Shown here: one piece after another, positions 9,605-53,714 of the stretch
Numbering within the stretch: position 1 is the stretch's first letter
How the letters are laid out: every line of letters starts with the position of its first letter
Origin: Faecalibacterium longum CLA-AA-H243
GTDB taxonomy: Bacteria; Bacillota; Clostridia; Oscillospirales; Ruminococcaceae
Direction of reading: 5' to 3'
Length of the DNA stretch: 64,000 bases
Assembly (NCBI RefSeq): GCF_020687245.1
Contig: NZ_JAJEQG010000010.1
Coordinates: forward strand, 1 to 64,000
Program-made: the position numbers and the translations under genes
The notes under the pieces: model-generated
Told to the model about the DNA's origin: nothing
The model's input: the letters and a program-made list of their open reading frames with translations, nothing else
Database searches by the model: none

Positions 9605-12600
9605 TTACCTCAGCAGTGCGGTGTGGTCTGCGCCGCCCACGGTGAAGGTGGCGGTGGAGCCGCTGTGGCTGAGGGTGAAAGGTGTGCTGCCCGCACCGAG
9701 GGCTGCAACATCGGAGAGGGAGAGGGTAGAAGTGCAGCTTTCAGTGGAGAAGACAACGGTCTCGATGCGCTCAGAGCGGAGGTCGGTCAAATCGGAAAGG
9801 TCGCCCTGCAGGGACGCCGTCTCCTGAGCGACATGAATGTAGAGAGTATGGTTGATCTGGCTCAGCTGGACCAGCTGGACGTTCTGGATGATATTGGCCT
9901 GAGCCGGGTCGAGGACACGCAGACCGGTGGAGATGCTGCTGTCGCTGTTGTGGGAGACATCGCGGTACTCCACCTCATTGCAGACCTCGCAGATGCGGTA
10001 CTCGCGGCTGCTGTCGCCTTTGACAGGCGTCCAGTCGCTCCACTGATGGCCGAGGGCGGGCAGCTCCTCCGTCTCAGTGACGACACAGCCGCTGATGGTG
10101 CAGCTGCGCTGGCGCTCGCCCTTCTCGGTGCAGGTGGGCTCTTTGGTGATGACCCATTCGCCGAAGGTGTGGGTCTTGCTGACGGGGATGACCTCAGTCT
10201 GGGTATCGTCGCCGCGGATGCAATCACGGTGCTTGGAGCCTTCCTCGACACAGGTAGCATCCCGGTCGATGACCCACTCGCCGTACTCGTGGCCGAGGGC
10301 CTTGATGGCCTCAGTCCGGGTATCGCCGCAGACGGAACAGGTGAAGGTCCGCACGCCGTCGGCAGTGCAGGTGGGCTCCTTCGTGACGACGCCTGCATCC
10401 CACTTGTGGGTGCTCTTATCCACCGGGATGCTCTCGGTCTTGGGAGCGCCGCAGACGACGCAGGTATAGGTCATGATGCCCGGCTCGGCGCAGGTCGCGG
10501 CCTTGGTCACGACGCCCGCGCCGTAGCTGTGCTGGCCGGTGGCGTTGAGCGTTTCGGTCTTCGTATCGCCGCAGACCGCGCACTTGTAGGTGACGGTGCC
10601 GTCCTGGCCGCAGGTAGCCGCTGTCGTGGAGAGGAGTTTCCACTGATGCTGGCCGGTGGCGGGGATGCTCTCGGTCTGGGTAGCGTCGCTGCGGATGCAA
10701 TCACGGTGTTTGGAGCCTTCCTTGACACAGGTAGCGTCCCGGTCAATGACCCACTCGCCGTACTCGTGGCCGGGGGCCTCAATGTCCTCAGTCCGGGTAT
10801 TGTGGCAGACGGTACAGGTGAAGGTGCGCACGCCCAGCTCAGTGCAGGTGGGCTCCTTCGTGACGACACCCTCGTTCCAGGTGTGCTGGCCGGTGGCGGG
10901 GAGAGTGTGACGGAACGTGGTGCCGCAGTGGTCCACCATGCAGGTGTATTCGATGTAGCCGTCCTTGCCGCAGTTCGGCTCCTGACGGTCGCTGACTTTC
11001 CAGTTGTGGACAGAAGCGATGTCGCCGTACTTGGCCTTTTCTGCCTCACTCATCTCGGGCGTTACGCGGTCGGGGGAGTGAGAAGTGGAATGGCTGTCCG
11101 CGTAGACACCGTTGTGGAAGATCCGCGAGATGCTGGTGGTGCCGCTCTTTACGAGCTTCACGAGGCCCGACCTGCCGTTTTCCATGAGGCTGATGACCTT
11201 GTCCAGCGTCTTGCCGTCGTTGCTTTGGATGGCATTGGCGGCGTCGGGGGCGGTTGCGGTGATGTCCAGCGGGGCGTCGGCATTGCTGATGGAGACGCTG
11301 CCGCCGCCGATGGCAGGGGCTTCGCCGGTGCCGTTGGCGATGATGGTGCCGCCGGTTATCGTGATACTGCTGGAGTTGTTGTTGTCGCTGCCGCCGATGC
11401 CGGCACCGGTGCCGTTGCCGGTGGCGTTGACCGTGCCGCTCTTGATAATCACGCTGCTGCGGCTATTATGGCCCGAGCCGATGCCGGCAGCGGAATCGCC
11501 GCCCGTTGCTTTGATGGTGCCGCCGTCGATCACGACGTCCACCTTGCCGGAGTCATAGCCTGAGCCGATGCCGGCAGCGAGATTGCCACCCTTGACGTCT
11601 TTGAGTTCGGCGTTACCGGAGATGTTGACCGTGGAAGAGCGACCGTAATAGCCCGAACCGATGCCGGCGCCGCCGTCCTTGCCCTCGGCCTTTTCAATGG
11701 TGCCGTCGGTGATGTTGATGGTGACAGCGCCCTTCTTGCTGTCGTTTTTGGTGTCACCGCTGCCGCTGCCGATGCCTGCGCCGCCGTATTTGCCGCCCGT
11801 GGCGCTGACGATATGGGCGTTGTCCTTGATGTTGATGGTGGTGGTGCCGGCATTCAGGCCTGCGCCGATGCCCGCGCCGCTATACCAGCGCTTAGAGCTG
11901 GGCACATACTCGCTGCCGCCCGTGGCCTCGGTGATGGTGCCGCCGGTGATGTTGATGGTGACAGCGCCCTTCTTGCTGTCGTCTTTGCTGCCACTGTAGC
12001 TGCCGCTGCCGATGCCTGCGCCGCCGTATTTGCCGCCCGAAGCGCTCTTGATGGTGCTGTCGCCGGAGATATTGATCTCGGTCTCGCCGGAGACGTTGGA
12101 GCCGGAGCCGATGCCTGCGCCGCTGAGCCACTTGTCGGAGTGATTGCGAGAGTCAAGGCTGACGCCGCCCGTGGCCGTGATTTCGCCGCCCTTGATGTTG
12201 ATGGTGGTCTTATTAAGGGCGTTGCCGCCGGAGCCGATGCCGGCACCGGAAGCCTGGCAGGACCCGTTCTCTTTGCCGCCGCCCTCAGCCGTGATAGTGC
12301 CGCCCTCGATGTTGATGATGGTGCTGCCGTTGCTGCCGTTGCCGCTGCCGATGCCCGCAGCGGTGGAGCCGCCCTTGGCAGTAACTTTTGTTGCACCCTT
12401 GATGAGGATGTCGGTGTTGCCCTTGGCTCTATTGCCGCTGCCGATGCCTGCGCCGCCACCGCCGCCAAGGGAGGAATTACCGCCGCCGGTGGCCTTAACG
12501 GTCACGCCGTCGTGGAGAGTGATGTGGGTGTAGCCGGTGGAGTGACTGCCTGAACCGATGCCCGCGCTGCCGTCGTAGCCGTCGCCGCCGCCTGTGGCCT

Positions 12601-15600
12601 TTTCAATGGTGCCGCCGGAAATATCAATGGTGGTCTCTCCGGAAGAACTGGTACCGGAACCAATGCCTGTGCCGATGTCTGCCGAGGCTGTGACATTGCT
12701 GCCGGTGATGTAGATGCCGGTCTTGCCCTTGGCGCTATCGCCGCTGCCGATGGCAGAACCAGAATAACTCGAAGCCTCGATTTTGCCGCCGTTGATGTGG
12801 ATCTCCGTGGCGTTGGTAGAATAGCTGCCGCTGCCGATGGCTGCACTTTCGCCGCTGGAGGCTGTGACATTGCTGTCGGTGATACGGATAATGGTCTTGA
12901 AGGTGTCCGGCGTATCTGTAGGAGGACTGGAGTAGTCTCCTTCACTGCCGCTGCCGATGGCTGCGCCGCTGCCGCCGACGGCATTTACTGTACTGTTGCG
13001 TTCTATCGTGATGTCGGCGTTGCTCTGAGAGCCGTAGCCGGTGCCGATGCCTGCGCCCGAGGCATTAGTGTAAGAAGCATTGGAGGACTCCAGAGTGCTC
13101 ACAGACGCGTTGCTGATGGTGACGTGAGTTTCGCCCTTGGCGCTTTCGCCGCTGCCGATGCCGGCACCGACGTAGGCAAAAGCACTTTTGACACCCTTTC
13201 CGGCTGTCGTATCGTGGATGTTGATGGTCGTCTCGCCGGTGGAGGATTTGCCCGAACCGATGGCTGCGCCGCCGCTGCTACCTGCGGACACGAGCGCATC
13301 TCCGGAGATGTCGATTTTGGTTTTGCCCTTAGACTGTTTGCCGCTGCCGATGCCGGCACCGCCATTGCCGTAGCCGGTGGAAGCGTTGACCTTGCCGCCA
13401 GTGATGTTGACCTTGGTCTCGCCGGAAGAGTTTTTGCCACCGCCGATAGCTGCGCCGCCATTGCCGGAGCCGGTGGAAGCGTGGACCTCGCCGCTGGAGA
13501 TGTTGACATTGGCCGCGCCGGAAGAGTTTTTGCCGCCGCCGATGCCCGCGCCGCCATCCGTACCCGTGGCATTTTTAATGGTGCCGCCGATGATGTTGAT
13601 GGTGGTAGCCGTGGAGGAGTTCGAGCCGCTGCCGATGCCTGCGCCGCCGGTGGCCTCGGTGATGGTGCCGCCGGAGATGTTGATCTCGGTAGCGAAGGCG
13701 GGTTTTGCGCCCGTGCCGATGCCCGCGCCGCCGCTGTCGCCGCTGCCGCCCTTGGCAGACCCGATGGCGCCGCCCGAAATTTTCACAACTTGATCGCCGC
13801 GGATGCCGGTGCCGCCTTTGCCACTGATGCCGGTGCTGTCGCCGCCGGTAGCCTGCTGTATCTCGCCGCCGGAGATGGTGAGAGTACCGTCGCTGTGGAT
13901 GCCGCTACCGCCGGTGCAGGTGTTCCCGTTGGCATTGCCGCCGATGGCTTTTTGGATGATACCGCCAAGGATCTCCATGGTCTTGCTATAGATGCCGTGG
14001 CCGCCGTTGCCGCTGCCGCTGCTCTTGCCTTCGCCGCCCTGTGCGGTTCCGATGGTGCCGCCGGAGATGGTGAGCTTGCCGTGGTTGTAGATGCCGCTGC
14101 CGCCGGTAGATTGGCTTTCGCCGCCGGTGGCTTTCTGGATGGAGGCCTGATCGGAGATGTCCAGGGTGCTGTCGCTGCGGATGCCGCTGCCGCCTTCGGT
14201 GCCGCCGTCGCCGCCCTTGGCGTTCTGGATGAAGGCCTTGCCGGAGATGTTCAGGGTGCTGTCGCTGTAGATGCCGTGGCCGCCGTAATATTTGCCGTTG
14301 CCGCCCTGCGCGTTTTCGATGGTGCCGCCGGAGATGTTCAGGGTGCTGTCGCTGTGGATGCCGTGGCCGGCGTAAAAGTTGCCTTTGCCGCCCTGCGCTT
14401 TTTTGATGGTGCCGCCCTGAATCGTGACGGTAATATTACTGCTATTGTTGCCGCCGCCGATGCCGTCGCCGGTGCTGCCACCCACGGCCTCCTCGATGGT
14501 GCCGCCAGAGATGGTGATATTGGTATTTCTGCTGTTGTCACCGCCGCCGATGCCGGCACCATAGTCGCCGCCCTGGGCTTTTACGGTGCCGCTGGTGATG
14601 TTGACGGTGGTAGTGCCGGAGGAGTTCGCGCCGCTGCCGATGCCGGCGCCGCCCTGCTCGGTCTGCGCCTCGATTTTGGCAGTGCCGCTGATGGTGATAT
14701 TGGTTTTGCCGGTAGCTTTGCAACCGCTGCCGATGCCGGCACCATCGGAGGCGCCGATGGCGGTGATGTCGCCGCCTGTTATCTCAATGTCGCCGGCGCC
14801 ACTGTCGCTATAGTTGCCGGTGTTCCAGACGCTGCCGATGCCAGCAGCGCAACCGGCGCCTGTGGCAGTCAGGCTGCCGGTGTTGTTGCCATCGGTATTT
14901 CCGGATGTGATGGTCAGTGTGCCGGTGTCCTTGCCACCATCGCTCTTTTCGTTGTGCTCGAGGCCGGCATGGTAGTTGCCGCTGGTGAGAGTATTTCTGC
15001 CCACGAGCGTGATTTTCGTGTTGCCCTCGCCCTCGACGCTGAGGGCGGCGTCCTTGTACTCGCGGCTGACATCGATGTTGACATTCTCCAGCGTCACGTT
15101 GAGGGTGTTGTCATTGCCTGTGGCTTTGTTGATGATTTTGATGACGTAGTTGGTGACGTTTTCGGCTGTGTTCTTGAAGTTTTCCGCAGCACGCTTCAAG
15201 ACCGTGGTCGATTCGTCCCGGGTCTCTTCGTCGTCATTGGCGTCGGCGACATTGAGGGATGCGCCGGTGTACGTGAGCTGGCTTCCCAGCACAGGGCTGT
15301 CGCCGGTCTGGTTCTCGTTTTCCTCGTTGCCGGTGGTGCCGCTGGGCTGGTTCTCGTTTTCCTCGCCGCCGGTGGTGCCGCTGGGCTGGTTCTCGTTTTC
15401 CTCGCCGCCGGTGGTGCCGCCGGTCTGATTCTCGTTTTCCTCGCCGCCGGTGGTGCCGCCGGTTTGGTTCTCGTTTTCCTCGTTGCCGGTGGTGTTGTTG
15501 GGCTGGTTCTTGTTTTCCTCGCCGCCGGTGGTGCTGCTGGGCTGGTTCTTGTTTTCCTCGCCGCCGGTGGTGGTGTTGTTGTTGGTCTGGTTCTTGTTTT

Positions 15601-15943
15601 CCTCGCCGCTGCCCTTGGTGTCGCCGAGGTAGACCATGTCATTGTTTTCGCTGTCTTCTGATGGGGGCGTGGCCGACATGGATTTGGCGGGAGACTTTGC
15701 GGGGGTGGTGCCTTCAGAAGAGCCGCCGCCGGGGGCGGGGGTATCCTCTGAGCGCTTGCCGCCCTTGATGACGATCTTGCCGTCGTTGTCCTTTGTAGCA
15801 GTATCATTTCCCGAGTGCTTGACATAGGTGCCGCTTTCGTCTTTGGTGATGGTGATGTTACCATCGCCTATGTAATAGACATCCGCATACGCCGGTGCGG
15901 CCATGCCGGCCACCATTGCGGCTGTCAGCGCCAGCGCCGTCAC
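9605..15943 (-). CDS. Giant secreted beta-helix-type surface protein, frame-disrupted at its 5' end
   Basis: The open frame encodes 2112 residues starting mid signal peptide (TALALTAAMVAGMAAPAYA, cleavage after AYA). Order of parts: 13-aa Gly/Glu/Asn tandem repeats (about 111-215); a mixed region (about 220-330); a very long run of 20-30 residue repeats with the core GAGIGSG or GGAGIG followed by INISGGTI (about 335-1555), the pattern of a right-handed parallel beta-helix or adhesin stalk; nine small Cys modules (about 1650-2000); and a short C-terminal domain. No LPXTG motif or C-terminal membrane anchor is visible, so attachment is unknown. The frame has no ribosome-binding site at 15943. 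A good SD and ATG exist at 16029, one nucleotide out of frame because of a nine-C run (15961-15969). Function is probably adhesion or glycan binding (inference). Confidence 0.85.
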   Translation of the reverse strand: MTALALTAAMVAGMAAPAYADVYYIGDGNITITKDESGTYVKHSGNDTATKDNDGKIVIKGGKRSEDTPAPGGGSSEGTTPAKSPAKSMSATPPSEDSENNDMVYLGDTKGSGEENKNQTNNNTTTGGEENKNQPSSTTGGEENKNQPNNTTGNEENENQTGGTTGGEENENQTGGTTGGEENENQPSGTTGGEENENQPSGTTGNEENENQTGDSPVLGSQLTYTGASLNVADANDDEETRDESTTVLKRAAENFKNTAENVTNYVIKIINKATGNDNTLNVTLENVNIDVSREYKDAALSVEGEGNTKITLVGRNTLTSGNYHAGLEHNEKSDGGKDTGTLTITSGNTDGNNTGSLTATGAGCAAGIGSVWNTGNYSDSGAGDIEITGGDITAIGASDGAGIGSGCKATGKTNITISGTAKIEAQTEQGGAGIGSGANSSGTTTVNITSGTVKAQGGDYGAGIGGGDNSRNTNITISGGTIEEAVGGSTGDGIGGGNNSSNITVTIQGGTIKKAQGGKGNFYAGHGIHSDSTLNISGGTIENAQGGNGKYYGGHGIYSDSTLNISGKAFIQNAKGGDGGTEGGSGIRSDSTLDISDQASIQKATGGESQSTGGSGIYNHGKLTISGGTIGTAQGGEGKSSGSGNGGHGIYSKTMEILGGIIQKAIGGNANGNTCTGGSGIHSDGTLTISGGEIQQATGGDSTGISGKGGTGIRGDQVVKISGGAIGSAKGGSGDSGGAGIGTGAKPAFATEINISGGTITEATGGAGIGSGSNSSTATTINIIGGTIKNATGTDGGAGIGGGKNSSGAANVNISSGEVHASTGSGNGGAAIGGGKNSSGETKVNITGGKVNASTGYGNGGAGIGSGKQSKGKTKIDISGDALVSAGSSGGAAIGSGKSSTGETTINIHDTTAGKGVKSAFAYVGAGIGSGESAKGETHVTISNASVSTLESSNASYTNASGAGIGTGYGSQSNADITIERNSTVNAVGGSGAAIGSGSEGDYSSPPTDTPDTFKTIIRITDSNVTASSGESAAIGSGSYSTNATEIHINGGKIEASSYSGSAIGSGDSAKGKTGIYITGSNVTASADIGTGIGSGTSSSGETTIDISGGTIEKATGGGDGYDGSAGIGSGSHSTGYTHITLHDGVTVKATGGGNSSLGGGGGAGIGSGNRAKGNTDILIKGATKVTAKGGSTAAGIGSGNGSNGSTIINIEGGTITAEGGGKENGSCQASGAGIGSGGNALNKTTINIKGGEITATGGVSLDSRNHSDKWLSGAGIGSGSNVSGETEINISGDSTIKSASGGKYGGAGIGSGSYSGSKDDSKKGAVTINITGGTITEATGGSEYVPSSKRWYSGAGIGAGLNAGTTTINIKDNAHIVSATGGKYGGAGIGSGSGDTKNDSKKGAVTINITDGTIEKAEGKDGGAGIGSGYYGRSSTVNISGNAELKDVKGGNLAAGIGSGYDSGKVDVVIDGGTIKATGGDSAAGIGSGHNSRSSVIIKSGTVNATGNGTGAGIGGSDNNNSSSITITGGTIIANGTGEAPAIGGGSVSISNADAPLDITATAPDAANAIQSNDGKTLDKVISLMENGRSGLVKLVKSGTTSISRIFHNGVYADSHSTSHSPDRVTPEMSEAEKAKYGDIASVHNWKVSDRQEPNCGKDGYIEYTCMVDHCGTTFRHTLPATGQHTWNEGVVTKEPTCTELGVRTFTCTVCHNTRTEDIEAPGHEYGEWVIDRDATCVKEGSKHRDCIRSDATQTESIPATGQHQWKLLSTTAATCGQDGTVTYKCAVCGDTKTETLNATGQHSYGAGVVTKAATCAEPGIMTYTCVVCGAPKTESIPVDKSTHKWDAGVVTKEPTCTADGVRTFTCSVCGDTRTEAIKALGHEYGEWVIDRDATCVEEGSKHRDCIRGDDTQTEVIPVSKTHTFGEWVITKEPTCTEKGERQRSCTISGCVVTETEELPALGHQWSDWTPVKGDSSREYRICEVCNEVEYRDVSHNSDSSISTGLRVLDPAQANIIQNVQLVQLSQINHTLYIHVAQETASLQGDLSDLTDLRSERIETVVFSTESCTSTLSLSDVAALGAGSTPFTLSHSGSTATFTVGGADHTALLR
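15301..15612 (-). repeat. Eight 39-bp coding tandem repeats (13 aa each)
   Basis: Inside the giant surface protein, eight successive units encode variants of GGEENENQPSGTT (GEENKNQ at the N-terminal side, GNEENENQTG at the C-terminal side). The unit is a multiple of three, so copy-number change alters linker length without shifting the frame. The most C-terminal units are closest to each other at DNA level, as expected for recent expansion. Confidence 0.85.
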
Positions 15944-16029
15944 CCGGTGGGACGTGGGCCGGGGGGGGGTGTCGGCACCCGCAGCGGATGCCCCAGAACG
16001 CGCATTGCGAGCTTGCGATAAGAGATCAT
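15944..16029 (-). other. 5' end of the giant surface protein gene with a C9 homopolymer (candidate phase switch)
   Basis: On the minus strand, AGAGGAGG lies 8 nt before an ATG at 16029, which reads MISYRKLAMRVLGHPLRVPT, then enters nine consecutive C (plus-strand G run 15961-15969) and stops at a TGA after 29 codons. Adding one C joins this start in frame to the signal peptide of the giant protein, giving a basic N-terminus plus hydrophobic core plus AYA cleavage site. Either the tract is a slippage switch caught in the OFF state, or the assembly has lost one base in a homopolymer. Confidence 0.75.
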
Positions 16030-16062
16030 AGTAGAAACCTCCTCTGAAAAGTGTGAGTTTTG

Positions 16063-16097
16063 CACAGAAGCTCCCAACAAAGCGGCAGGAGCTTGTG
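16063..16097 (-). promoter_or_regulatory. Stem-loop in the leader of the giant surface protein gene
   Basis: Inverted repeat AAGCTCC / GGAGCTT with a 13 nt loop, extended by flanking CACA/TGTG, lying between the promoter and the start codon. No U-run follows, so it is not a terminator; it may affect mRNA stability or translation. Confidence 0.4.
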
Positions 16098-16125
16098 GAA
16101 GAAGCATAAATGTTGAATCTGATTT

Positions 16126-16154
16126 ATTCTACCACATTCCGGCCATAATGTGAA
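16126..16154 (-). promoter_or_regulatory. Sigma-A-type promoter for the giant surface protein
   Basis: Read on the minus strand: TTCACA (-35), 17 bp spacer, TAGAAT (-10), about 97 bp before the proposed ATG at 16029. A good promoter plus a good SD argue that the upstream ATG is the real start. Confidence 0.7.
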
Positions 16155-44387: not shown

Positions 44388-44573
44388 AACCTCTCAGTCT
44401 CACTTCGTTCGACAGCTCCCCTAGTAGGGGAGCCTCTGGCGAAGAGGCAAAGCGCTACGGAATGCCAAAGCCTCCCCTAGTAGGGGAGCCTCTGGCGAAG
44501 AGGCAAAGCGCTACGGAATGCCAAAGCCTCCCCTACTAGGGGAGGTGGCACGGCGAAGCCGTGACAGAGAGGC
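44388..44573 (+). repeat. Dispersed stem-loop repeat, copy I, internal tandem duplication
   Basis: Outer element with no cassette, but the block GGGGAGCCTCTGGCGAAGAG ... GCCAAAGCCTCCCCTAGTA is present twice in tandem (about 65 bp period). Both conserved outer flanks are visible here: TGTACAACCTCTC on the left and GAGAGGCTGTACGAAGGA on the right, so the true terminal inverted repeat extends to about TCCTTCGTACAACCTCTC. Confidence 0.88.
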
Positions 44574-53671: not shown

Positions 53672-53714
53672 GCTCCTTATTATTTTTTTTTTGACAAAAA
53701 GATACATCAAATCG

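Follow-up and report, generated by a model that had tools for sequence, protein, structure and literature searches.

A nine-C run as a very probable phase-variation switch in the signal peptide of a secreted beta-helix protein of Faecalibacterium

In a Faecalibacterium gene for a secreted, Gly-rich beta-helix protein, a run of nine C within the part encoding the signal peptide very probably acts as a slipped-strand phase-variation switch. The run belongs to a minus-strand locus at 9605–16154 of the window, that is, of the whole 64-kb stretch of DNA analysed here. As judged from genome comparison, the gene shows three features of a contingency locus: a homopolymer that would set frame or spacing, differences of length and state among close relatives, and a gene that is otherwise intact.

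A signal peptide split between two frames

The start of the gene was re-read on the minus strand. A motif scan placed a promoter-like site, TTCACA-17-TAGAAT, at 16126–16154 (TTCACA 16154–16149; TAGAAT 16131–16126). A ribosome-binding site, AGAGGAGG, lies at 16038–16045, 8 nt ahead of ATG 16029. From this ATG a leader frame of 29 codons (15940–16029), beginning MISYRKLAMRVLG, ends at TGA 15942–15940, and the proposed switch of nine C (15961–15969; nine G on the plus strand) is situated 60 nt 3' of the ATG. The second frame starts at GTG 15943 and extends over 2112 codons (9605–15943). The coordinates that an earlier note had given were all correct. The same note had called the promoter good: the two boxes are present and match at 10 of 12 positions, yet a 1.1-kb scan returned two matches at this level vs 1.3 in shuffles, and the promoter is plausible with no above-chance signal when taken alone.

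The 2112-codon frame does begin in the middle of a signal peptide, as had been described, and no Shine-Dalgarno sequence was found ahead of GTG 15943. It stays open for 60 codons 5' of this GTG, giving an open frame of 2172 codons, and the 2112 codons contain neither a stop nor any further lesion. They encode the remainder of the signal peptide, linker repeats, a Gly-rich beta-helix, Cys-containing repeats and a C-terminal module; the linker (GGEENxNQ), directly after the signal peptide, corresponds to a 39-bp tandem repeat of about 7 copies found at 15301–15609 in a repeat scan. Export of the long-frame protein would require its fusion to the leader. In the assembly, the ATG frame enters the nine C and ends after 29 codons, in agreement with the earlier reading; the leader is left out of frame with the long body and only a 29-residue peptide is expected (state OFF). 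An Rfam search near the switch gave a tRNA as its sole match. Elsewhere in the window, a 56-bp tandem repeat (2.3 copies, 98% identity) was observed at 44416–44544.

A block of 55–56 bp comprising the ribosome-binding site, the ATG and the leader is conserved with 85–89% identity at four loci in three other Faecalibacterium genomes. At those loci the same frame stays open across the signal peptide and goes on to encode a beta-helix protein, and the coding part has no long run. Since these relatives share the ribosome-binding site and the leader and read into the signal peptide, ATG 16029 is taken as the true start, as had been proposed. A degenerate leader pattern matched ten loci in 6 of 31 Faecalibacterium genomes, and an eleventh, divergent leader was found in genome G030; the reversed pattern, used as a control, had no match in the 31 genomes, and the pattern itself had none in 389 genomes of other genera (396 were sampled from the family). 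The leader alignment includes 3 named loci, G008 being F. hattorii APC922/41-1 and G015 F. prausnitzii APC923/61-1. No relative of the whole window protein was found in the named genomes, and no relative of the leader family in the viral contigs searched.

Pfam detected only beta-helix repeats in the window protein (PF18889 Beta_helix_3, E 1.2e-34) and no match to PF14262, which was hit in one of five relatives at 24.6 bits, below the gathering score of 25.8. A profile of seven relatives compared with PDB retrieved 4peu/4phb (Cthe_2159) with an E value of 5.5e-6. The predicted structure of an F. hattorii relative (mean pLDDT 85.5) aligned with Cthe_2159 at Z 19.2 (rmsd 2.7 over 216 residues, 24% identity), the next family reaching Z 14.8; Foldseek on its own gave no significant match (best E 0.019) and an NCBIfam search gave none. 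Family proteins are thus predicted to contain a Cthe_2159-like beta-helix. They have the parallel beta-helix in common with Cthe_2159 (PDB 4peu, 4phb; PF14262) and differ from it in being longer and in their shared C-terminal module, which is common to the window protein and several relatives and often ends like GGADHxxLL. A C-terminal LPXTG signal is absent from the window protein, which has one LPATG inside a repeat. The earlier name of adhesin was a guess; the data support instead the label of a putative secreted beta-helix protein of the polysaccharide-binding type. Cthe_2159 of Clostridium thermocellum is reported to bind celluloses and polygalacturonic acid (PMC6712302).

Run lengths, placements and states in the leader family

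A G/C run of at least 7 is present in each of the 11 leader genes: seven have it in the signal peptide, the other four between -35 and -10. The seven coding runs lie +53 to +60 nt from the ATG, in the n-region of the signal peptide; three genes are open and four are shut. In the genome of the window, the window gene on contig 1 (C9) is shut, and the genes on contig 3 (G9) and contig 24 (G7) are open. Two genes of the one-contig genome G002 are shut with G8 each, the gene of G012 is open with G11 and that of G030 is shut with G14. The window gene thus has a C run vs G runs at the other six coding tracts. Among the promoter runs, C9 is found in a 17-bp spacer in each of two G008 genes, C7 in a 15-bp spacer in G015 and C11 in an 18-bp spacer in G014. 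This comparison shows the run of family members either in the coding part, as a predicted translational switch, or in the -35/-10 spacer, as a predicted transcriptional one.

The comparison of run lengths suggested in the earlier note was made on paralogues and relatives, with one genome per species, rather than on strains of one species, and both lengths and states differ. Runs of 7, 8, 9, 11 and 14 G near the same place, in open as well as in shut genes, support the phase-switch reading put forward there. In the flanks of the run, 55/60 and 54/60 positions are shared by the open contig-3 gene (G9) and a shut G002 gene (G8), whose tracts differ by a single G. The promoters of F. hattorii and F. 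prausnitzii, with runs of 9 vs 7, agree at 58/60 positions downstream of the run and at 34/60 upstream (ungapped).

Slippage of RNA polymerase or of the ribosome at homopolymers is known, and the window run sits between two frames that belong together, as programmed frameshifting with a stable DNA length and constant expression would have it. Such slippage leaves unexplained the promoter-spacer runs of the sister genes, as well as the differing lengths and the open and shut states at the same place, and we regard it as very unlikely. A dead gene, in which the frameshift is a one-way loss, would agree with the frame being shut in the assembly and with the 301-bp 5' region, for which the genome of the window alone gave a full-length match among the 31 searched. 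It is difficult to reconcile with 2112 codons free of any other lesion, and the other three shut alleles likewise have a body in a single open frame (636, 547 and 641 codons), the frame being lost at the run; one-way loss appears extremely improbable.

When other leaders were included, a run of at least 7 was present within -260 to +120 in 20 of 26 family loci and in none of the remaining 6, as compared with 0.6% of random 380-bp segments of the window. Starts were located at 20 of the 26 loci, all with runs (for G012:C66 by way of a proxy, its true start being uncertain); the six other loci were scanned and contained no run of at least 7. The 26 loci omit seven weak matches with E values from 1e-6 to 3e-4 (G012:C3, G012:C11:715k, G020, G024:C195, G027:1578k, G028:112k and G030:2721k). 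Two similarly weak G027 genes were retained, as they have a leader in common with each other and are close neighbours; without both, the count is 18 of 24. A further placement was seen at L108, L109 (two genes) and L173, where C runs of 7–10 are positioned about 40 nt 5' of the ATG, below a GATAAT/GATGAT-like box; these runs would thus belong either to a 5' untranslated region or to a promoter that went unrecognised.

Under the phase-variation reading, cells with nine C would have a ribosome make the 29-residue peptide and would not export the protein (OFF). Slippage during replication would alter the run length in a small fraction of cells, and lengths of one residue class modulo three would align leader and body, so that those cells export the protein. 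Sister genes would switch through a changed distance between -35 and -10. The exported beta-helix may then bind polysaccharide, and the switch would yield a population whose cells differ in binding, or in their ability to evade phages or host antibodies.

G/C runs in the genome, the genus and the family

The nine-C run is the only G/C run of at least 7 in the 64-kb window, in which the sole other homopolymer of at least 9 is a T10 at 53683. Under a third-order Markov model, 0.365 G/C runs of at least 9 are expected per 64 kb; the existence of the run is therefore unremarkable, and the weight falls on its position. The genome of the window (2.96 Mb, 89 contigs) has 7 G/C runs of at least 9, two at contig ends and five inside contigs. 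Two of these five belong to leader-family genes (the window gene and its contig-3 paralogue) and one to the promoter spacer of a lipoprotein gene. At a threshold of at least 8, eight runs lie inside contigs: two in family leaders, two in lipoprotein promoters (contigs 2 and 8), one upstream of a ferredoxin-like gene (contig 89), two close to gene 3' ends (contigs 2 and 11) and one on contig 55.

Runs of 18 and 20 were observed at the end of contig 26 and the start of contig 31 of the same genome. They indicate that the draft assembly handles G/C runs badly, so the count of nine may be wrong; as the assembly breaks at such runs, it may lack other switch loci or conceal them in its gaps. Homopolymers are error-prone, and these two breaks are what could be expected if the run had one fixed in-frame length and the shut frame were an artefact of sequencing or assembly. 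A miscall is nevertheless improbable: three further family genes are shut, including the pair in G002, a genome assembled as one contig, and runs recur at functional places across the family and the genus. Moreover, an error at the window run would leave the switch elsewhere untouched.

In 31 Faecalibacterium genomes, runs of at least 9 total 153, of which 87 were examined; the leader family's own runs and those at contig ends were set aside, together with all G026 runs and most of those in G001, G004–G007, G010, G011, G013, G016, G021 and G024. A G-strand run lay within a promoter (-35 box with at least 5/6 matches, plus a -10 box) in 21 of the 87, vs 1 of 87 on the C strand (p 3e-6). A looser test on both strands was positive for 22 of the 87 long runs; short runs passed it in 3 of 234 cases and random positions at a rate of 1.6%. 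Roughly three in four long runs hence have no recognisable promoter around them.

A poly-G promoter pattern was then defined in which the run abuts the -10 box (TTGACA, 4–11 nt, at least 8 G, TANNNT). It occurs 22 times in 13 of the 31 Faecalibacterium genomes. The other genera of the family have it in 12 of 389 genomes, and beyond the family it is present in 3 of 396; the reversed pattern, searched as a control in the same genome sets, was absent. Six stretches of viral contigs match the pattern as well. Altogether 66 distinct sites were collected, 55 of which have a gene with a ribosome-binding site at most 260 nt away. Genes that look secreted account for 45 of these 55 (17 with a lipobox) vs 10 of 39 window genes (p 5e-8), the 66 sites spanning all loci collected, viral contigs included, and the control being the 39 window genes only. 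The signal-peptide rule is crude: at L215 it chose a start later than a Tat-type lipoprotein leader.

In another genus, g63, all three sampled genomes (G092, G184 and G251) carry the pattern, at 4, 7 and 9 sites that resemble one another in their flanks and have 8–11 G. By inspection, 19 of these 20 sites (L235–L254) precede genes with secretion leaders, many of them alike; the exception is L239, with a permease-like gene. Many of the genes preceded are of about 350 codons and share a common MKKIFALALAAVMTAGM-type leader. The g63 loci perhaps represent a large family of phase-variable surface proteins.

Other runs were noticed in the course of the survey. A receiver-domain-like gene in eight Faecalibacterium genomes has a C run at its 3' end with conserved flanks, the counts being 10, 9, 9, 10, 9, 9, 11 and 10 at L025, L118, L123, L149, L154, L160, L168 and L189 respectively; C-terminal phase variation of a signalling protein is possible. 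In the genome of the window, L284 (contig 89:11297, G8) is upstream of a Cys-rich ferredoxin-like gene, and the same TATAAGAAATAATGTTATAATA stretch follows its run and that of L125 (genome G015, G10). A lipoprotein pair in G000 and G002 was considered as evidence of switching and set aside: the runs are G9 vs G10, yet the spacer measures 16 bp in both.

Known systems and significance for Faecalibacterium

The best-known poly-G contingency loci are those of Gram-negative pathogens. For Faecalibacterium, the literature matches listed included no report of homopolymer phase variation, most subscription journals being outside the scope of that search, and a 2025 phase-variation review contains neither the word Faecalibacterium nor Firmicutes (PMC11868660). 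The mechanism is hence of a known kind, and Faecalibacterium would be a new setting for it.

Among the published systems compared, the pilus switch of Bifidobacterium breve is the closest. There, a coding G run separates a short leader frame from a long one, variable tract lengths were measured, and the surface protein is giant, with 2674 codons at one locus (PMC9187656). Both cases concern a gut commensal and a giant protein in which the leader frame has translation signals and the long frame lacks them. B. breve, in contrast, is an actinobacterium whose sortase-dependent pilus clusters carry LPXTG, whereas the protein described here is a predicted beta-helix without a C-terminal LPXTG; its run is of C rather than G, and sister genes appear to be switched via the promoter. 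In Helicobacter canadensis, homopolymers are reported in promoters, at the 5' coding end and at the 3' end of the frame (PMC2823697), the same three placements as found here, and in Neisseria meningitidis repeats can alter the spacing of promoter elements (PMC5084427). Those two species are Gram-negative pathogens in which variation was seen in reads, whereas here it is predicted from the comparison of assembled genomes. Finally, a homopolymer near the 5' end of the Listeria surface-protein gene inlA leads to frameshifts (PMC2831843). The likeness lies in the 5' homopolymer, the Firmicute surface-protein gene and the frameshift; the inlA runs are of A/T, unlike the G/C runs described here, which are rare in the genome and concentrated at genes for secreted proteins.

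Taken more widely, it seems likely that a genome-wide set of G/C-run switches operates in Faecalibacterium and in some further genera of its family, so that individual cells would differ at random in their surface of secreted proteins and lipoproteins. The switches would have three placements (promoter spacer abutting the -10 box, n-region of the signal peptide, 3' end of a signalling gene). On the same reading, transcriptional and translational switching would have replaced each other within a single protein family, and the C run and the G runs would have arisen at nearly the same signal-peptide position. The window locus would be one of many candidate loci of this type in the genus, a fact invisible from the window alone. 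Faecalibacterium is among the abundant, health-associated gut bacteria, and these comparisons suggest that a commensal may vary its surface as some pathogens do. If so, one strain would be a mixture of surface types, and annotation would mistake OFF genes for broken or mis-started ones. Tract lengths would be readable from existing metagenomes, and could tell what host, diet and phages select. With poly-G switches on the beta-helix proteins and lipoproteins of a commensal Firmicute, it could also be tested how useful the mechanism is in general, in a setting other than disease.
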